A program made the position numbers and the translations under genes. A DNA stretch of 64,000 nt, from NCBI GenBank assembly GCA_018266055.1, contig JAFDYT010000006.1, forward strand, positions 1-64,000. The letters are read 5' to 3'. Below the pieces are notes generated by a model. That model had not been told where the DNA came from. It ran no database searches and saw only the letters and a program-made list of their open reading frames with translations. Source of the DNA: Bacteroidota bacterium (GTDB taxonomy: Bacteria > Bacteroidota > Bacteroidia > Cytophagales > Cyclobacteriaceae). Position 1 is the first letter of the stretch. The number at the start of each line of letters is the position of its first letter. This document shows, one piece after another, positions 46,884 through 53,547 of the stretch.

Positions 46884-48488
46884 TCAGAGTCCATTCACTT
46901 GTTTGTCTTTCGGATACTTCACCTCGTATTTGAAGACGATCTTTTTAGTCTCGTTGGGTTGCAGATTCAAATCCCACGAAAGCTTGCCCGTATCTTTGTT
47001 GTATTTCGCTCCGGCGATGTCGATGGCCGTCACTTCGATCTGACTGTTTTGCGAAACTGGGATCTGATCCTCCACAGAAATTTTTACGGCTTCGGTTTTG
47101 GTGTTGCGCACCGAAATCTCCCACGCGTATGTCTCACGCTGGTTGGTACCAATGAATTTTCGTGTGGTCAATTCTTTTTGTTTCTCACGCTTTACCACGA
47201 TGCGTTTGTCGCGGCCCAACGAAAGTGAAAGTGTGTCTTTGATGTTGTTCGGGTCGATGTACGATTTTCCCGTAAAGGTGCCTTCAAAGAAAATGTTGGC
47301 TTCTCCGGGCAACAGACTCAACTCTTCCCAGCCAATGGCTTTGGCAATCAGGAATGCATCGTTGTCAAGCTTGGGTGCGGTAGAATAATTGTAGTCGGCT
47401 TTCAATTCGTAATTGCGGATGTCCACCAGCGTAGGTTTGCTTGCCGAAGCCACCGTGTAAGGCAAAGAGATATCAAATTCAGTATTGAGGGAAGTTTGAA
47501 TGGTTGAAACATAACCGGCAACAGAAGATGCCGCATCAAGTTTCGCTGAATCGTTAATTTCCCTTTCTGCATTTTTGTAAACTGCCATCGGAGCTGCGCT
47601 GTAACGGTATTTTGCAGATCTCACAACTGGTTGATACAAATCCAAATACCACGCAACCAACTCCGGCTTCAACCCGCTTTGGCTTGGGTTAGCGGTAGAA
47701 AGTTTCAGTTTCACATTCTTCCATTCTTCACCCGTGCTTTGAAACACATTGGCTTTGTAGTTCAACTGTAGCGGGCTTTTGGTGTTGATGGCGCGAATAT
47801 CGTATTGCGGCGTCCAGCCAGCGTTACTCACCACGTAACTGATTTCAAGATCGGCACTGGTGGCGGCATCGGCCGAAACACTTACCACAATTTCGCTGGT
47901 GTTGCGCTGGTGCAATTCATTTTGTGTGTTGATCTGCTGTTGCAAGTGCACGATGCGCTCGTTCAATTTTTTGATCTTGTCGTCTTCTTTCATGCGCGAC
48001 GCCGCGATATCGGTAAGGCGCGCACGGTAAAAGTCGGCCATCGCCTTCAGTTCCGTTACCGTCAGGTTTTGGTTGTTGCCGCCGATCTTCTGATTGCTCA
48101 GCAACATCTGTTCTTCTTTGGCAAGAATTTCTTTTTGTGTGTTTTCAAAGGTCGCCTGGTTTTGCAAAAGTTCGACTGAGTCTTTCAGTTGCTTCAGACC
48201 TTTGGGCATATTCAGCTCCGACAAATAATTCTGCTGATGGCTGGTGCCGAGGATTATAAAATTGCCCTTTCCGGAAATCTGAATGCTTTCCGGATCTAAC
48301 ATGGATGTAAGCCCGTTGACGATCAAATTTGTTTTTCCTGCATTTAACTGAGTGTGAACTTGTCGAGTTACCTGCGCCCGGTTAAGGAAGACGGTAACAT
48401 CCGTTATTCTTGAGCCCGCTGATTGATTGGTCTGGGCCAAGCATTCGCCTGCCCACATACCTAATAGTACTACCACTAACTTTTTCAT
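46884..48488 (-). CDS. Exported DUF4139-family protein
   Basis: The 534-residue protein has a signal peptide (MKKLVVVLLGMWAGECLAQ). The N-terminal part (about 26-110) is the DUF4140-like beta domain, followed by a long coiled coil (about 95-190, with KEEQMLLSNQKIGG and KKLNERIVHLQQQIN), then the C-terminal DUF4139 domain (about 200-530: VSNAGWTPQYDIRA, YKANVFQSTGEEWKN, VKLKLSTANPSQSG, and the later NP-T-K-K-I-V type end). This layout is known as the mucoidy-inhibitor A-like family. It is likely periplasmic; the exact function is not established. Confidence 0.88.
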   Translation of the reverse strand: MKKLVVVLLGMWAGECLAQTNQSAGSRITDVTVFLNRAQVTRQVHTQLNAGKTNLIVNGLTSMLDPESIQISGKGNFIILGTSHQQNYLSELNMPKGLKQLKDSVELLQNQATFENTQKEILAKEEQMLLSNQKIGGNNQNLTVTELKAMADFYRARLTDIAASRMKEDDKIKKLNERIVHLQQQINTQNELHQRNTSEIVVSVSADAATSADLEISYVVSNAGWTPQYDIRAINTKSPLQLNYKANVFQSTGEEWKNVKLKLSTANPSQSGLKPELVAWYLDLYQPVVRSAKYRYSAAPMAVYKNAEREINDSAKLDAASSVAGYVSTIQTSLNTEFDISLPYTVASASKPTLVDIRNYELKADYNYSTAPKLDNDAFLIAKAIGWEELSLLPGEANIFFEGTFTGKSYIDPNNIKDTLSLSLGRDKRIVVKREKQKELTTRKFIGTNQRETYAWEISVRNTKTEAVKISVEDQIPVSQNSQIEVTAIDIAGAKYNKDTGKLSWDLNLQPNETKKIVFKYEVKYPKDKQVNGL

Positions 48489-48543: not shown

Positions 48544-48655
48544 AAAAATTTTAAAGCCGGGCATCCATTTACACCGTTTGCGGAAGCTGATTTTAAAAAT
48601 AATTAGCCACAGGCGTTGGAAAGCTGTGATTAAACTGATTACTTGGGCAACTCAA

Positions 48656-48763
48656 ATGCATAAGCAACACGCCATATCATCTATTATTACCGCTGGCAGC
48701 ACCGTTGCAACCATTTCATTCGTGGTGACTATCACCACTATTACGACCATTATTACGGGGTAA
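48656..48763 (+). CDS. thrL: Threonine operon leader peptide
   Basis: A 35-codon frame starts at ATG 48656 and ends at TAA 48761. Its product has nine Thr and eight Ile, and the C-terminal half is almost entirely Thr, Ile and Val (VVTITTITTIITG). This is the same design as E. coli ThrL, where ribosome stalling at Thr and Ile codons decides whether a downstream terminator forms. The end of the frame is 94 nt before thrA. It is followed by hairpins and a U-tract terminator. An upstream in-frame TTG could extend the frame but is less likely. The name thrL is by position and content, not by homology. Confidence 0.75.
   Translation: MHKQHAISSIITAGSTVATISFVVTITTITTIITG
48722..48738 (+). promoter_or_regulatory. 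Hairpin in the Thr-codon run of the leader
   Basis: GTGGTGA (48722-48728) and TCACCAC (48732-48738) form a 7-bp stem with a 3-nt loop inside the leader frame. An alternative: 48721-48727 could pair with 48794-48800 (7 bp, two GU pairs), which is the 5' arm of the terminator. Either may take part in attenuation switching. Confidence 0.4.
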
Positions 48764-48771
48764 CCCGTAAT
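48752..48771 (+). promoter_or_regulatory. Hairpin over the leader-peptide stop codon
   Basis: ATTACGGG and CCCGTAAT form a perfect 8-bp stem closed by a GTAA (GNRA-type) loop. The leader stop TAA is in the loop and last stem base. Such a hairpin could be the pause or antiterminator-blocking structure of an attenuator. Confidence 0.5.
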
Positions 48772-48793
48772 CACTACCATATCGCCCCCATAC

Positions 48794-48838
48794 CATCATG
48801 CTGTTTCCAGGAAGCGGCCACTGATGTCTGTTTTTTTT
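48794..48838 (+). terminator. Attenuator terminator before thrA
   Basis: The 5' arm CATCATGCTGTTT pairs with AAGCGGC-(C)-A-(C)-TGATG, about 13 bp with two single-base bulges and two GU pairs around a CCAGG loop. After TCTG comes a run of eight Ts (48831-48838). It lies 20 nt before the thrA ATG and 31 nt after the leader stop. This is an intrinsic terminator placed upstream of the genes it controls, as expected for attenuation. Confidence 0.7.
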
Positions 48839-48857
48839 ACACACTATTATTTGGTTT

Positions 48858-51305
48858 ATGAAAATTTTAAAGTTTGGCGGCTCATCAGCCTCCACCCCGG
48901 AAAGAATAAAATCGATTATCGAAATCGTAAAGCCGAACCTGAAAGAAGATGTGGCGATCGTTTTCTCTGCCTTTGGTGGCGTCACCGACCAGCTCATCAA
49001 CCTCAGCAAGCTGGCGCTGGAAGGAAATCTCGATTACAAACAAAAACTTGAGCAACTGGAGAAGCGGCACCTCGACGCTGTGCGCGAGCTCACTCAGGTC
49101 TCCACGCAAAGTGGAATATTAGCGCAGGTAAAAGTTCAGATCAACGAACTGGAAGATGTGCTTCACGGAATTTTTCTGGTAAAGGAAAGGACGCCGCGCA
49201 CGCTGGATTACATCATGAGCTTCGGCGAGCGGCTCTCGGCCTACATCATCAGCGAAGCGTTCAAAGACAAAGGTCTGGCGGTAGAGTACCTCGATGCCCG
49301 CAAGGTGATTCGCACCGACAATCAGTTTGGTTATGCCAAGGTAGATTTTGAAACGACGCACAAACTCATCCGCGATCATTTTAAAAATCACGCCGATGTG
49401 CAGATCATCACGGGTTTTATCGCTACCTCTGAAAGTGGCGAAACTACAACTCTTGGCCGCAGTGGTTCGGATTATACTGCAGCCATTTTTGCTGGCGCGC
49501 TGCAGGCGTCAACGCTCGAAATCTGGACCGACGTAGACGGAATGATGACCGCCGATCCGAGGCTGGTGAAAAAATCTTTCACCGTACCCAAGATGAGCTA
49601 CGAAGAAGCCATGGAGCTCTCGCACTTTGGTGCTAAGGTGATCTTCCCTTCCACCATGCAACCGGCCATGGCCAACCGTATTCCTATTTGGATAAAAAAT
49701 ACGTTCAACCCGAAAGCCGTAGGCACAGTCATCAGTGCCGACTCGGTGAATGGCAAGCTGATCAAAGGAATTTCGTCGATGAACAACATCAGCCTGCTCA
49801 ATGTGCAGGGCAGCGGATTGCTCGGTGTCGTGGGCGTTTCCATGCGGTTGTTCTCTACGCTGGCCCGCGAAAAAGTAAACGTCATCCTCATCAGTCAGGC
49901 TTCGTCAGAACACTCTATTTGTATTGCTATCGAAACGGACTCAGCCGCTCGGGCAAAAGCTTCGTTGGAAAAAGAATTCCTTCATGAAATTCAGGATGAA
50001 CTGATCGACGAGATCAAAGTGGTGCAAGGGCTTTCGATTGTCGCCGTGGTAGGCGACGGCATGAAGCACCATCCCGGCACCAGCGGACGGATGTTTAGCG
50101 CGCTGGGAAAAAATGGTGTGAATGTAGTGGCCATCGCGCAAGGTTCATCCGAGCGAAACATCTCTACCGTAATTCAGCAATCAGACGTATCAAAAGCGCT
50201 TAACGTACTTCACGACGCATTCTTCCTCTCCGATATCAAAACGACATACGTTTTCCTTGTCGGGACAGGATTGATCGGAAGCACACTGATCAACCAGGTG
50301 AAAGAGCAGTTTCAAAAACTTTCTTCGCACAACAAACTTGAAATCAAACTGGCTGGAATTGCCAACAGCAAAAAAATGCTGTTCGATGAAAATGGTCTTC
50401 AGTTGGAGTCGTGTGTAGCGCAGATGAAAGAACACGGCGAAGTAATGAACCTGAAGGAGTTTGTGCGCAAGATGATTTACCTGAACTTGCCCAGCAGCGT
50501 GTTCGTGGATTGTACTTCAAGCGCCGACGTCGCTGCCAACTACGAGGAAGTTCTTTCGGCCAATATCTCAATCGTGACGCCCAACAAAAAAGCGAATTCG
50601 GGAGCATACGAAAATTATCAGCGACTAAAACAAATCGCGCTGGCACGTGGCGTTCGTTTTCTTTACGAGACCAACGTTGGCGCCGGCCTTCCGGTGATCA
50701 ATACGTTGAACGATTTGCTGCTTAGTGGTGACAAAGTAATTCGCATCGAAGGCGTACTCAGCGGCACATTGAATTTCATTTTCAGTTCATTCACGAAAGG
50801 AAAAAATTTCAGCGACGTAGTAGCTGAAGCCAAAGCAAAAGGCTACACCGAGCCCGACCCACGCGACGATTTAAGCGGGATGGACGTGGCTCGTAAAATA
50901 CTTATCCTCGCTCGCGAAGCTGGCGCCGTACTTGAACTCAGCGATATCGAAGTAGAAAATCTTGTTCCCGAAAATTGCCGAGGCGAAATGAGCGCCGATG
51001 CATTTCTGGCGAAGATCAAAGATCACGATGCTCATTTTGAAAAACTTCGCGCACACGCCGAGGCCAAAGACAAGAAGCTGCGCTATCAGGCAATTTTTGA
51101 AAACGGAAAAGCCTCTGTGAAATTGGGAACCGTGGCCAGCAGTCATCCTTTTTATTCCTTGTCGGGAAGTGACAACATCATTTTGCTCACCACTGAGCGT
51201 TACCACGACCGGCCGATGGTGATTCGCGGGCCAGGCGCAGGAGCTGAAGTGACAGCCGCCGGAGTTTTTGCTGACATCATTCGCATCGGAAATTATTCGC
51301 ATTGA
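48858..51305 (+). CDS. thrA: Bifunctional aspartokinase/homoserine dehydrogenase
   Basis: The 815-residue enzyme fuses aspartokinase (1 to about 300; MKILKFGGSSAS start, IITGFIA, TTTLGRSGSDYTAA), two ACT regulatory domains (about 310-460; VGVSMRLFSTLA and ERNISTVI) and homoserine dehydrogenase (about 465-815; NAD(P)-binding GTGLIGSTLINQ). It catalyses the first and third steps from aspartate to threonine. Feedback inhibition by threonine is expected from the ACT region. It is the first gene of thrABC. thrB overlaps or immediately follows its stop. Confidence 0.97.
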   Translation: MKILKFGGSSASTPERIKSIIEIVKPNLKEDVAIVFSAFGGVTDQLINLSKLALEGNLDYKQKLEQLEKRHLDAVRELTQVSTQSGILAQVKVQINELEDVLHGIFLVKERTPRTLDYIMSFGERLSAYIISEAFKDKGLAVEYLDARKVIRTDNQFGYAKVDFETTHKLIRDHFKNHADVQIITGFIATSESGETTTLGRSGSDYTAAIFAGALQASTLEIWTDVDGMMTADPRLVKKSFTVPKMSYEEAMELSHFGAKVIFPSTMQPAMANRIPIWIKNTFNPKAVGTVISADSVNGKLIKGISSMNNISLLNVQGSGLLGVVGVSMRLFSTLAREKVNVILISQASSEHSICIAIETDSAARAKASLEKEFLHEIQDELIDEIKVVQGLSIVAVVGDGMKHHPGTSGRMFSALGKNGVNVVAIAQGSSERNISTVIQQSDVSKALNVLHDAFFLSDIKTTYVFLVGTGLIGSTLINQVKEQFQKLSSHNKLEIKLAGIANSKKMLFDENGLQLESCVAQMKEHGEVMNLKEFVRKMIYLNLPSSVFVDCTSSADVAANYEEVLSANISIVTPNKKANSGAYENYQRLKQIALARGVRFLYETNVGAGLPVINTLNDLLLSGDKVIRIEGVLSGTLNFIFSSFTKGKNFSDVVAEAKAKGYTEPDPRDDLSGMDVARKILILAREAGAVLELSDIEVENLVPENCRGEMSADAFLAKIKDHDAHFEKLRAHAEAKDKKLRYQAIFENGKASVKLGTVASSHPFYSLSGSDNIILLTTERYHDRPMVIRGPGAGAEVTAAGVFADIIRIGNYSH

Positions 51306-51307
51306 TC

Positions 51308-52246
51308 ATGGATAAGAATAAATCAGTAAAGGTTTTTGCACCTGCCTCCATCGGCAATGTGTCGTGCGGGTTTGATGTACTTGGTCTTGCCGTTGATTCG
51401 CCAGGCGACGAAGTGTTACTTTCGTTCAATGATTCCGCGCAGGTTACCATCGCGGCGATCATTGGCGATGACGGAAGACTTCCGTTGGAAGCGAACAAAA
51501 ATACAGCCGGTGTCGCGGTGATTGAATTCCTGAAGTCGATCAACAAAACGCAGGGAGTGGAAATCACGCTTTATAAAAATTTGCCGCTGGGTAGTGGCAT
51601 GGGTTCTAGTGCTGCTAGCGCTGTAGCCGCTGTGGTAGCGATCAATCATTTGATGGGCAGTCCGATGAAGCGCGAAGACTTGCTTCCTTTTGTGATGGAA
51701 GCAGAGCGCATCGCCTGCGGTTCGGCGCATGCCGACAATGCAGCGCCGAGTTTGCTCGGAGGCTTAATCCTTATCCGTGAAAATCATCCACTCGATATCA
51801 TCAGCATCCCAACGCCTGAGGAATTGTTTTGTGTGCTGGTGCATCCGCACGTAGAAGTAAAGACAAAAGACGCGCGGTCGGTCTTGAAAGCCACTATTCC
51901 GCTGAAAGATGGAATTAAACAATGGGCCAACACCGCTGCACTCGTCGCCGGTATGATGAAAAAAGATTACGCGCTCATTGGCCGCTCGCTGGTAGATGTG
52001 GTAGCTGAGCCATTGCGCTCTGATTTGATTCCCGGTTTTGAAAAAGTAAAAAAGGCAGCGCTGCAAAATGGCGCGTTGGGTTGCGGCATCTCCGGCTCAG
52101 GGCCTACTATTTTTTGTCTTTGCCAAGGAAAGGAAAACGCCACACGTGCAGGCAACGCCATACAACTGGAGTTTGAATCGCTTCGGCTGCAAAGTGAAAT
52201 TTATATTTCAGAAGTAAACCGAAAAGGGGCTTATATCATTGATTAA
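51308..52246 (+). CDS. thrB: Homoserine kinase
   Basis: About 312 residues from the ATG at 51308 (the TTG at 51302 is less likely). It is a GHMP kinase: the ATP-binding loop PLGSGMGSSAASAVAAVVA (about 90-105), the N-terminal VFAPASIGNVSCGFD motif, and the late ALGCGISGSGPTIF segment are present. It phosphorylates homoserine, the fourth step of threonine synthesis. The ATG lies 2 nt after the thrA stop. Confidence 0.96.
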   Translation: MDKNKSVKVFAPASIGNVSCGFDVLGLAVDSPGDEVLLSFNDSAQVTIAAIIGDDGRLPLEANKNTAGVAVIEFLKSINKTQGVEITLYKNLPLGSGMGSSAASAVAAVVAINHLMGSPMKREDLLPFVMEAERIACGSAHADNAAPSLLGGLILIRENHPLDIISIPTPEELFCVLVHPHVEVKTKDARSVLKATIPLKDGIKQWANTAALVAGMMKKDYALIGRSLVDVVAEPLRSDLIPGFEKVKKAALQNGALGCGISGSGPTIFCLCQGKENATRAGNAIQLEFESLRLQSEIYISEVNRKGAYIID

Positions 52247-52251
52247 CGACC

Positions 52252-53547
52252 ATGAGATTTTACAGTACAAATACTACACAGCAATTCGTAACGCTTCAGC
52301 AAGCCGTGATCCAGGGACTTGCGCCCGACAACGGGCTTTATATGCCTGAACAAATTCCGGTTTTTCCTTCCGAATTTTTTAAAACCCTTTCGGGGAAAAC
52401 CTTTCAGGAAATTGCGCTGGCTGTGGCCAAGCCTTTTGTCGGTGACGAAATTCCGGAAGAGCAACTCCAAACAATCATTCACAACACCATCACCTTCGAT
52501 GCACCGCTGGTGGAAGTAGAAAAAAATATTTTTTCACTTGAGCTATTTCATGGGCCGACGGCTGCTTTCAAAGATTTTGGCGCGCGATTCATGTCGCAGG
52601 TGCTAGGGTATTTTGCGCAGCAACAAAAGCGGGAGATCGTCATCCTGGTTGCCACGTCGGGCGACACAGGAAGTGCCGTGGCAAACGGGTTTTTAGGTGT
52701 CCCCGGCACACGCGTGATCGTGCTTTATCCTTCCGGAAAGGTCAGCGACATTCAGGAAAAACAATTCACTACGCTCGGAAAGAACATTACCGCCGTGGAA
52801 GTTTCCGGCACGTTTGATGATTGCCAGCGATTGGTGAAACAGGCTTTTTTAGATGAAGAATTAAAATCGAAATTCTTTCTTACGTCGGCCAACTCCATCA
52901 ACATTGCGCGATTGATTCCACAGTCATTTTATTATTTCTATGCATGGTCGCGGTTAGCGCAACAGAATGAAGTTGTGTTTTGTGTCCCCAGCGGAAATTT
53001 TGGAAATCTCACCGCCGGACTTTTTGCGCAGCGCATGGGCTTGCCTATTCAGCATTTTGTAGCAGCCACCAATGCCAATGACATCGTGCCGCAGTATCTC
53101 AACACCACGCAATTCTCGCCACGGCCATCGGTGCAGACCATCAACAACGCGATGGATGTAGGAAACCCCAGCAACTTTGCTCGTATGCTGGATTTGTTTC
53201 ATCACGATCATAAAGCGATGTCTCGGGCAATCACAGGATATTCTTTTTCAGACCAGGAAACGCAGGCTGCGATGATTGATGTGTTTAAAAATTTAAACTA
53301 CGTGCTTGATCCGCACGGCGCCATCGGCTATCTCGGTATAAAAAAATACCTGAAGCAGCATCCCTCTGCCACTGGTGTTTTTCTGGAGACCGCTCATCCA
53401 GCCAAGTTTCCTGACGTGGTAGAAAGCACGCTGAGCACCCGAGTCGCCATTCCTGATTCATTGCAGCGATTTTTGTCGGGCAAAAAAGAAACCATTGCTT
53501 GCTCCACAACATTTGCTGACTTCAAAAAAGTACTGAACCACATTTGA
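52252..53547 (+). CDS. thrC: Threonine synthase
   Basis: The 431-residue PLP enzyme turns O-phosphohomoserine into threonine. The cofactor Lys is K107 in HGPTAAFKDFGARF; the ATSGDTGSAVA phosphate-binding loop and the SANSINIARL segment are also visible. The N-terminus (MRFYSTNTTQ) and overall size fit the bacterial ThrC form that includes an N-terminal helical part. It starts 5 nt after the thrB stop and ends the thrABC operon. Confidence 0.97.
   Translation: MRFYSTNTTQQFVTLQQAVIQGLAPDNGLYMPEQIPVFPSEFFKTLSGKTFQEIALAVAKPFVGDEIPEEQLQTIIHNTITFDAPLVEVEKNIFSLELFHGPTAAFKDFGARFMSQVLGYFAQQQKREIVILVATSGDTGSAVANGFLGVPGTRVIVLYPSGKVSDIQEKQFTTLGKNITAVEVSGTFDDCQRLVKQAFLDEELKSKFFLTSANSINIARLIPQSFYYFYAWSRLAQQNEVVFCVPSGNFGNLTAGLFAQRMGLPIQHFVAATNANDIVPQYLNTTQFSPRPSVQTINNAMDVGNPSNFARMLDLFHHDHKAMSRAITGYSFSDQETQAAMIDVFKNLNYVLDPHGAIGYLGIKKYLKQHPSATGVFLETAHPAKFPDVVESTLSTRVAIPDSLQRFLSGKKETIACSTTFADFKKVLNHI

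Follow-up and report, generated by a model that had tools for sequence, protein, structure and literature searches.

Classical attenuators are often sought as a leader peptide plus a terminator, and the tna leader senses free tryptophan through its nascent peptide. The leader orf34 of speF has a Rho output, Arg codons, and a structure that sequesters the ribosome-binding site (available part of PMC6386406). The Cys leaders predicted in mycobacteria are described as having a polypyrimidine stretch and no terminators, with a Rho output suggested (available part of PMC1262725), and the Bacteroid-trp motif, RF01692, is a cis-regulatory candidate of Bacteroidetes (available part of PMC2864571). Our literature search, which covered subscription journals thinly, found no paper on thr leaders in Bacteroidota. 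The bacterial attenuation survey of Lopatovskaya et al. (2010), known to us as a cited reference, may describe some of these leaders. Here we analyze the region ahead of thrA in a 64,000-nucleotide stretch of a Bacteroidota bacterium (assembly GCA_018266055.1, contig JAFDYT010000006.1, positions 1 to 64,000; the window). We see an even chance that it represents an uncatalogued Bacteroidota thr-operon RNA element, an attenuator without an intrinsic terminator. Its proposed parts are a Thr/Ile leader, a hairpin whose arms swap sides between families and which has the leader stop in it or directly behind it, a single-stranded motif resembling CATATnGCCC at a fixed distance, and, in the window's family, a further hairpin, P3. 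In the window, the parts are as follows.

48656..48763, + strand: leader peptide open reading frame (ORF) of 35 codons, with 9 Thr and 8 Ile, ending ATT ACG GGG TAA (translation and frame conservation)
48722..48738, + strand: P1, a perfect hairpin within the leader ORF, GTGGTGA-CTA-TCACCAC (hairpin scan)
48752..48771, + strand: P2, a hairpin over the leader stop, with the TAA (48761-48763) inside a GUAA tetraloop (hairpin scan and relatives)
48778..48789, + strand: unpaired motif CATATCGCCCCC, 10 nt past the P2 core stem (comparison of relatives)
48794..48826, + strand: P3, a bulged hairpin with a CAG loop, taken as the terminator stem in the earlier, sequence-only reading (folding, and covariation in 22 relatives)
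48831..48838, + strand: T8, a run of eight T that starts 4 nt past the P3 stem and is not conserved (sequence and terminator scan)

The leader ORF translates to MHKQHAISSIITAGSTVATISFVVTITTITTIITG*, with Thr at 9 and Ile at 8 of 35 positions, as the sequence-only reading had it. ThrA was detected in 54 of 58 near genomes and, among named genomes, at 520 confirmed loci, the best 80 of which were considered. The upstream regions came from the same genus (L001-L024 and L036) and from named loci with ThrA identity of at least 64% (L040-L086 and L097). Two loci whose ThrA start lies off the contig (L025, L083) and 17 rows with an identical upstream stretch were dropped, leaving 55 distinct rows. 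A Thr/Ile-rich frame runs into the conserved core in all 55, and a stop stands right behind the core in 52 (TAG in 26, TAA in 19, TGA in 7; the others read TGG in two and TAT in one). As three different stop codons are used, it is the stopping itself that is kept. Over the 12 codons preceding the last Gly codon, Thr and Ile make up 73.5% of residues in frame and 1.7% and 1.2% in the other frames (54 relatives). The final two sense codons are ACG GGG in 54 of 54 rows (L036 left out) and the Thr and Ile codons upstream vary synonymously, so the upstream part is conserved at the peptide level and the end at the nucleotide level. Five further family loci (L212-L216) also carry the leader; none was found at L217 (f1), where ThrA is distant. 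In L022 and L077, TGG replaces the leader stop and the frame continues to a stop at the hairpin end (STTTGWRP*). As in an E. coli-type thr attenuator, then, thrABC is preceded by an apparently translated ORF in which Thr and Ile codons form runs. Its identification as a Thr/Ile leader peptide of the thr operon, conserved in relatives, is supported at the level of sequence, and it very probably senses Thr/Ile supply. That the ORF and hairpins are products of chance is hardly conceivable, given the conserved frame and given that searches of whole genomes with models of the element lead to regions upstream of thrA.

The perfect hairpin that the sequence-only reading placed over the leader stop is also borne out: P2 in the window reads ATTACGGG-GTAA-CCCGTAAT. 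Group A of the family rows (26) has a CGGG-loop-CCCG stem with the stop within a GURA-type loop, and group B (28) has GGGGUAGCKCCC and a weaker stem. Other families put the C-rich arm first, for example AACCC-UUUAG-GGGUU, CAUGCCC-UAAG-GGGCAUG, and ACCCC-AUAAC-GGGGU. On the sequences compared, the C- and G-rich arms of P2 swap sides between families. Among 28 representative rows, both CG and GC occur at each of three central stem positions, and 16 have the whole stop codon within the loop; these rows were chosen by best hairpin and pair by construction, so that only the arm swap is informative. The pair counts exclude an alignment of the flipped-arm set, in which rows with different loop lengths were not in register. 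A P2 score of at least 14 was reached by 27 of 55 family rows and 16 of 21 other-family loci, against 1.4% and 1.9% of shuffles; at the stop of control leaders it was reached in 0/22 his, 2/17 ilv, and 0/7 f61 cases. In both sub-groups RNAalifold found P2 and no other structure, because the alignments are poor further downstream. For P1, inspection of relatives by eye showed unrelated short hairpins.

The terminator tells a different story from the leader. The sequence-only reading proposed an intact attenuator with the logic of E. coli thrL, in which stalling on Thr and Ile codons prevents terminator formation. The bulged hairpin and the T8 are present, with gaps of 30 nt from stop to hairpin and 19 nt from T8 to the ATG (31 and 20 had been given). 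Our test required a stem energy of -8 kcal/mol or lower and at least 6 T in 8, with the T-run starting within 1 nt (strict) or 4 nt (relaxed) of the stem. It was passed by 1 of 55 thr loci on the strict and 4 of 55 on the relaxed rule, the window among the latter only. A simple terminator scan lists none at the leader of the window, and the strict scan omits its T8 because the run starts 4 nt past the stem. An intrinsic terminator directly followed by a U-run, as in E. coli, is thus not kept in relatives; comparing their thrA upstream regions, as the sequence-only reading had suggested, upheld the Thr/Ile leader and not the terminator.

Biosynthetic leaders of the same genus served as controls. 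Terminators were found in 21 of 22 his loci (22 of 26 rows, broken or fragmentary hisG dropped) and 17 of 18 ilv loci (18 of 19 loci over the cut-off; L210 fails), and, for thr, in 7/7 leaders of f61, another family of the class, whereas the remaining other-family thr leaders gave 0/21 (strict) and 1/21 (relaxed). A His-rich leader ORF is present at all 22 hisG loci examined (L150-L171; L155 in the window's own genome), 21 of which also have a strong terminator; the his leader of this genus is a classical his attenuator. Of the ilvE-ilvD-ilvB operons (L194-L211; L196 in the own genome), 17 of 18 combine a branched-chain leader with a strong terminator, and in many rows GGGG at the leader end is complementary to the C-rich arm of the terminator. 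A switch test asked whether the terminator 5' arm pairs upstream with a stalled ribosome and not with a ribosome at the stop (nearest-neighbor folding, no pseudoknots). It was positive in 21/22 his, 17/17 ilv, and 7/7 f61 thr leaders, and, under a looser T-run rule, in 11/11 further f61 and f13 thr leaders. In the window, the P3 5' arm pairs upstream with probability 0.05 with the ribosome at the stop and 0.06 at the best stall, so that folding shows neither a switch nor an antiterminator; the weak antiterminator candidate suggested earlier (48721-48727 with 48794-48800) is likewise not borne out by folding. The probability of P3 stays at 0.975-0.979 across seven ribosome states, which lends no support to the idea that stalling prevents its formation. 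Of 27 family rows that carry a CCAGG/CAAGG hairpin, 8 showed some switching, but without a U-run. Translational control of thrA by refolding was considered and rejected: in folding, the accessibility of the thrA start is independent of ribosome state (1 up and 1 down of 55). A C block pairs with GGNGG codons of thrA in some rows only, and codon choice at these codons shows no unusual bias.

Covariance models extend the element beyond the loci on which it was defined. A window-form model, built from 22 rows, spanning P2 to P3, and excluding thrA sequence, has a single match in the genome of the window, at 48751-48833 with E 1.9e-23. Among 148 family genomes it matches 54, which represent 33 of 84 genera, at E up to 0.01, and 42 of these reach 1e-4 or better; a few genomes have more than one weak match. 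Twenty matches were fetched, chiefly the strongest unseen ones, four of them model rows. Each of the 20 is found 81-141 nt ahead of thrA and follows a leader whose final 13 residues include 4-10 Thr/Ile. The other 16 come from 13 genera, one of which (g345, L363) is shared with a model row; they show a terminator in 1/16 and Thr/Ile at 54% in frame against 5% and 2%. A flipped-form model of 18 rows, run against 395 genomes of the class at E up to 0.05, gave 19 matches, one per genome. Seventeen stand just upstream of thrA (16 model rows and the new L276), and two weak ones, L349 and L350, do not. A group-B core pattern, which cannot match the window's own core, matches only 2 of 78 family genomes and is little informative.

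Predictions were checked on 20 more loci of the class. They held for four f33 loci from one genus and for an f74 locus, each with the leader, P2, and the motif, and for seven f61 loci, which carry classical terminators. The prediction failed for L326 and L327 (f4) and for L316 and L317 (f33, another genus), where no leader of at least 6 Thr/Ile in 12 was found; L330 (f53) has a Thr-rich frame, a weak P2, and no CATA, and L331 has no leader features. Taken together, textbook (type I) thr attenuators occur at 14 of 14 f61 loci examined and 4 of 6 f13 loci. The form without a conserved terminator (type II) occurs in f1, f4, f5, f33, f34, f42, f56, and f74, with f53 and f88 doubtful. Many other families examined gave no leader, and the distribution is patchy. 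The attenuator of the f13 operons L250, L251, L328, and L329 comprises all four segments, and in L251 and L328 at least, its 1:2 hairpin contains the stop. The sequence-only reading saw the E. coli solution in this phylum; it does occur there, in the thr operons of f61 and f13 and in the his and ilv leaders, but the case for this locus is not clear. P2 probably corresponds to the 1:2 (pause) hairpin known from classical attenuators. That the f13 stop codon sits in such a hairpin, and that one class has two designs, suggest that P2 derives from the old 1:2 hairpin and that in type II the 3:4 terminator either disappeared or was never present.

What the type II leaders keep downstream of P2 is a conserved unpaired motif close to CATATnGCCC, about 10 nt beyond the hairpin. 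CATA or ATAT occurs 5-18 nt past P2 in 16 of 20 other-family rows, the discovery set, against 3.2 expected and at most 9 in 2000 shuffles; in the loci outside the model it occurs in 15 of 16 against 1.15 expected. Its place after P2 is constant even across families with flipped P2 arms. P3 in the window folds at -13.6 kcal/mol (z -2.72; 2 of 200 shuffles are as good). Its covariation was judged in 22 of the 26 group-A rows, in which P2 is invariant (L021, L041, L043, and L047, with a divergent or displaced P3, were omitted). Five of seven pairs change on both sides, a count that is not unusual alone, as 123 of 500 shuffles reach it; there are 29 such cells, and shuffles give 10.2 ± 2.9. In the 16 further loci (L363-L378) the P3 stem sequences vary, for example GGUCC...GGACC. 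P3 ends 40-44 nt ahead of the thrA ATG in 12 of these 16 and 31 nt ahead in the window.

The RNA past the leader stop is C-rich and G-poor, matching a Rho-dependent attenuator in composition. C minus G is 0.123 in the 55 family rows, 0.081 in 20 other type II loci, 0.048 in 7 type I loci, and 0.031 in 99 thrA loci without a recognized leader (a set that counts L276, later found to have one). It is 0.138 in the 16 non-model fetched loci, and the window's value exceeds 17 of 17 local 5' regions. From sequence and folding, we consider it plausible, at somewhat under even confidence, that the thr leader is a ribosome-mediated Thr/Ile attenuator of type II, and we tentatively propose Rho-dependent termination as its output step. 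With ample charged Thr- and Ile-tRNA, the ribosome would complete the leader and leave at the stop, and P2 would close; the C-rich RNA behind P2 would then be open to Rho, which would terminate transcription ahead of thrA or early within it. Under a shortage of Thr or Ile, the ribosome would halt on the codons just preceding the stop, and its footprint would mask P2 together with the first part of the C-rich stretch, so that Rho could not load in time and thrABC would be transcribed. With no intrinsic terminator and no refolding, such a steric output, Rho blocked by the ribosome, is the simplest. The Rho output of speF orf34 and the one predicted for the mycobacterial Cys leaders are precedents.

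Several points weigh against this proposal. P2 is weak in group B, 20 of 55 rows score below 12, and equilibrium folding gives a mean P2 probability of only 0.46 over 55 rows, several of which pair GGGG with a later C block instead. Scores of at least 12 also occur in 7/22 his and 8/17 ilv controls, of which only 4 and 0 have the stop within the loop. The composition differences (Mann-Whitney 2e-14 and 0.007) come from related rows, so that the p-values overstate them; a C-rich, G-poor stretch predicts Rho weakly, and a stalled ribosome would leave more distal RNA open. Finally, a Rho output leaves the fixed motif and the near-constant distance from P3 to the ATG unexplained, and the constant placing of motif and P3 suggests a partner more specific than Rho.

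Were the locus instead a classical E. coli-type attenuator, P3 and T8 would be the terminator and a stalled ribosome would free an antiterminator. P3 is stable, T8 follows it and passes the relaxed test, and the same genus has his and ilv attenuators, as f61 and f13 have thr attenuators. We nevertheless hold this to be rather unlikely: T8 is not conserved in the 55 rows or the 16 further loci, it lies 4 nt away from the stem, the window offers no competing pairing, and the eight relatives that switch lack the U-run. T8 may be an added feature, a constitutive partial terminator.

The fixed spacing of the motif lends itself to an RNA-polymerase pause element, with P2 as a hairpin pause signal and CATAT as the pause site about 10-13 nt downstream, where the leader ribosome would release the polymerase and couple transcription to Thr/Ile supply. 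Hairpin-to-pause spacing is roughly 11 nt, the motif keeps its place where the arms are flipped, and P2 corresponds to the 1:2 hairpin of the full four-segment attenuator in f13. Pausing alone leaves starvation-raised expression unexplained, and by itself we judge it unlikely; it may be combined with the Rho reading. Alternatively, a protein or small RNA could bind at the motif and P3, or these could influence thrA translation, with the leader only adding a Thr/Ile input. A conserved unpaired motif between two hairpins would fit, as would the distance from P3 to the ATG in the 12 further loci, though not in the window. The start of thrA does not respond to ribosome state in folding, a test that pseudoknots and proteins lie beyond, and this explanation seems to us quite improbable. 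If the element is instead the uncatalogued one that we propose, P2 would report the ribosome clearing the stop, and the motif would contact Rho, another factor, or a paused polymerase.

The operon downstream was named by NCBIfam and Pfam, and a candidate promoter lies upstream.

48577..48607, + strand: weak candidate Bacteroidota-type promoter, TTTG-N19-TAATTAGC (by-eye reading)
48858..51305, + strand: thrA, bifunctional aspartate kinase/homoserine dehydrogenase I (NCBIfam NF006959, 1079 bits against a cut-off of 726)
51302..52246, + strand: thrB, homoserine kinase (NCBIfam NF002288 and TIGR00191, both over cut-off)
52252..53547, + strand: thrC, threonine synthase (NCBIfam TIGR00260, over cut-off)

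The order thrA-thrB-thrC is that of E. coli. The promoter candidate was read against the Bacteroidota consensus; by eye, strings like TTTG/ATTG...TATTTTTG stand at the equivalent place in L002-L004. Upstream of the leader, 16% of the 55 relatives reach a promoter score of at least 9 of 10, against 7% of shuffles, and the best in the window is only 7. A divergent neighbor on the - strand (46884-48488) encodes a MuiA-family/DUF4139 protein.

One class thus uses two designs for the same operon, a textbook one in f61 and f13 and one without a conserved terminator in the type II families. A terminator-based search would miss the second, which has a conserved single-stranded motif. Cultured relatives (Ohtaekwangia, Chryseolinea, Dawidia, and others) could separate the Rho, pausing, and protein-binding readings.

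Rfam at gathering thresholds finds nothing in the window, RF00506 (Thr_leader) included, and locus L001 has no match at E up to 1. In permissive Rfam scans, 0 of 32 type II loci matched at the leader (L027 matches about 3.5 kb away), and RF01692, which from its name we take to be a trp leader, did not match the thr leaders. Weak RF00506 scores (31.7-36.5 bits; gathering 55) come up only for four type I thr leaders (L259, L265, L266, L319) and for the his leader L155 of the window's genome, which scores 34.5 bits, so these weak scores are not specific. With E. coli thrLABC the window shares a Thr/Ile-rich leader ahead of thrABC and a hairpin near the leader end, but its type has no conserved terminator or antiterminator. 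With tnaC-type leaders and speF orf34, which have a Rho output, it shares a leader ORF followed by C-rich RNA without an intrinsic terminator, the Rho step here being our proposal. The mycobacterial Cys leaders likewise combine a leader peptide, no terminator, and a pyrimidine-rich stretch, whereas a stop-codon hairpin or fixed motif goes unmentioned in the available part of that report (PMC1262725). The classical his and ilv attenuators of the same genus and the thr attenuators of f61 and f13 resemble the window in placing codons for the product amino acid in the leader, and those of f13 also in having the stop in the 1:2 hairpin; they differ in their strong terminators and switchable antiterminators.

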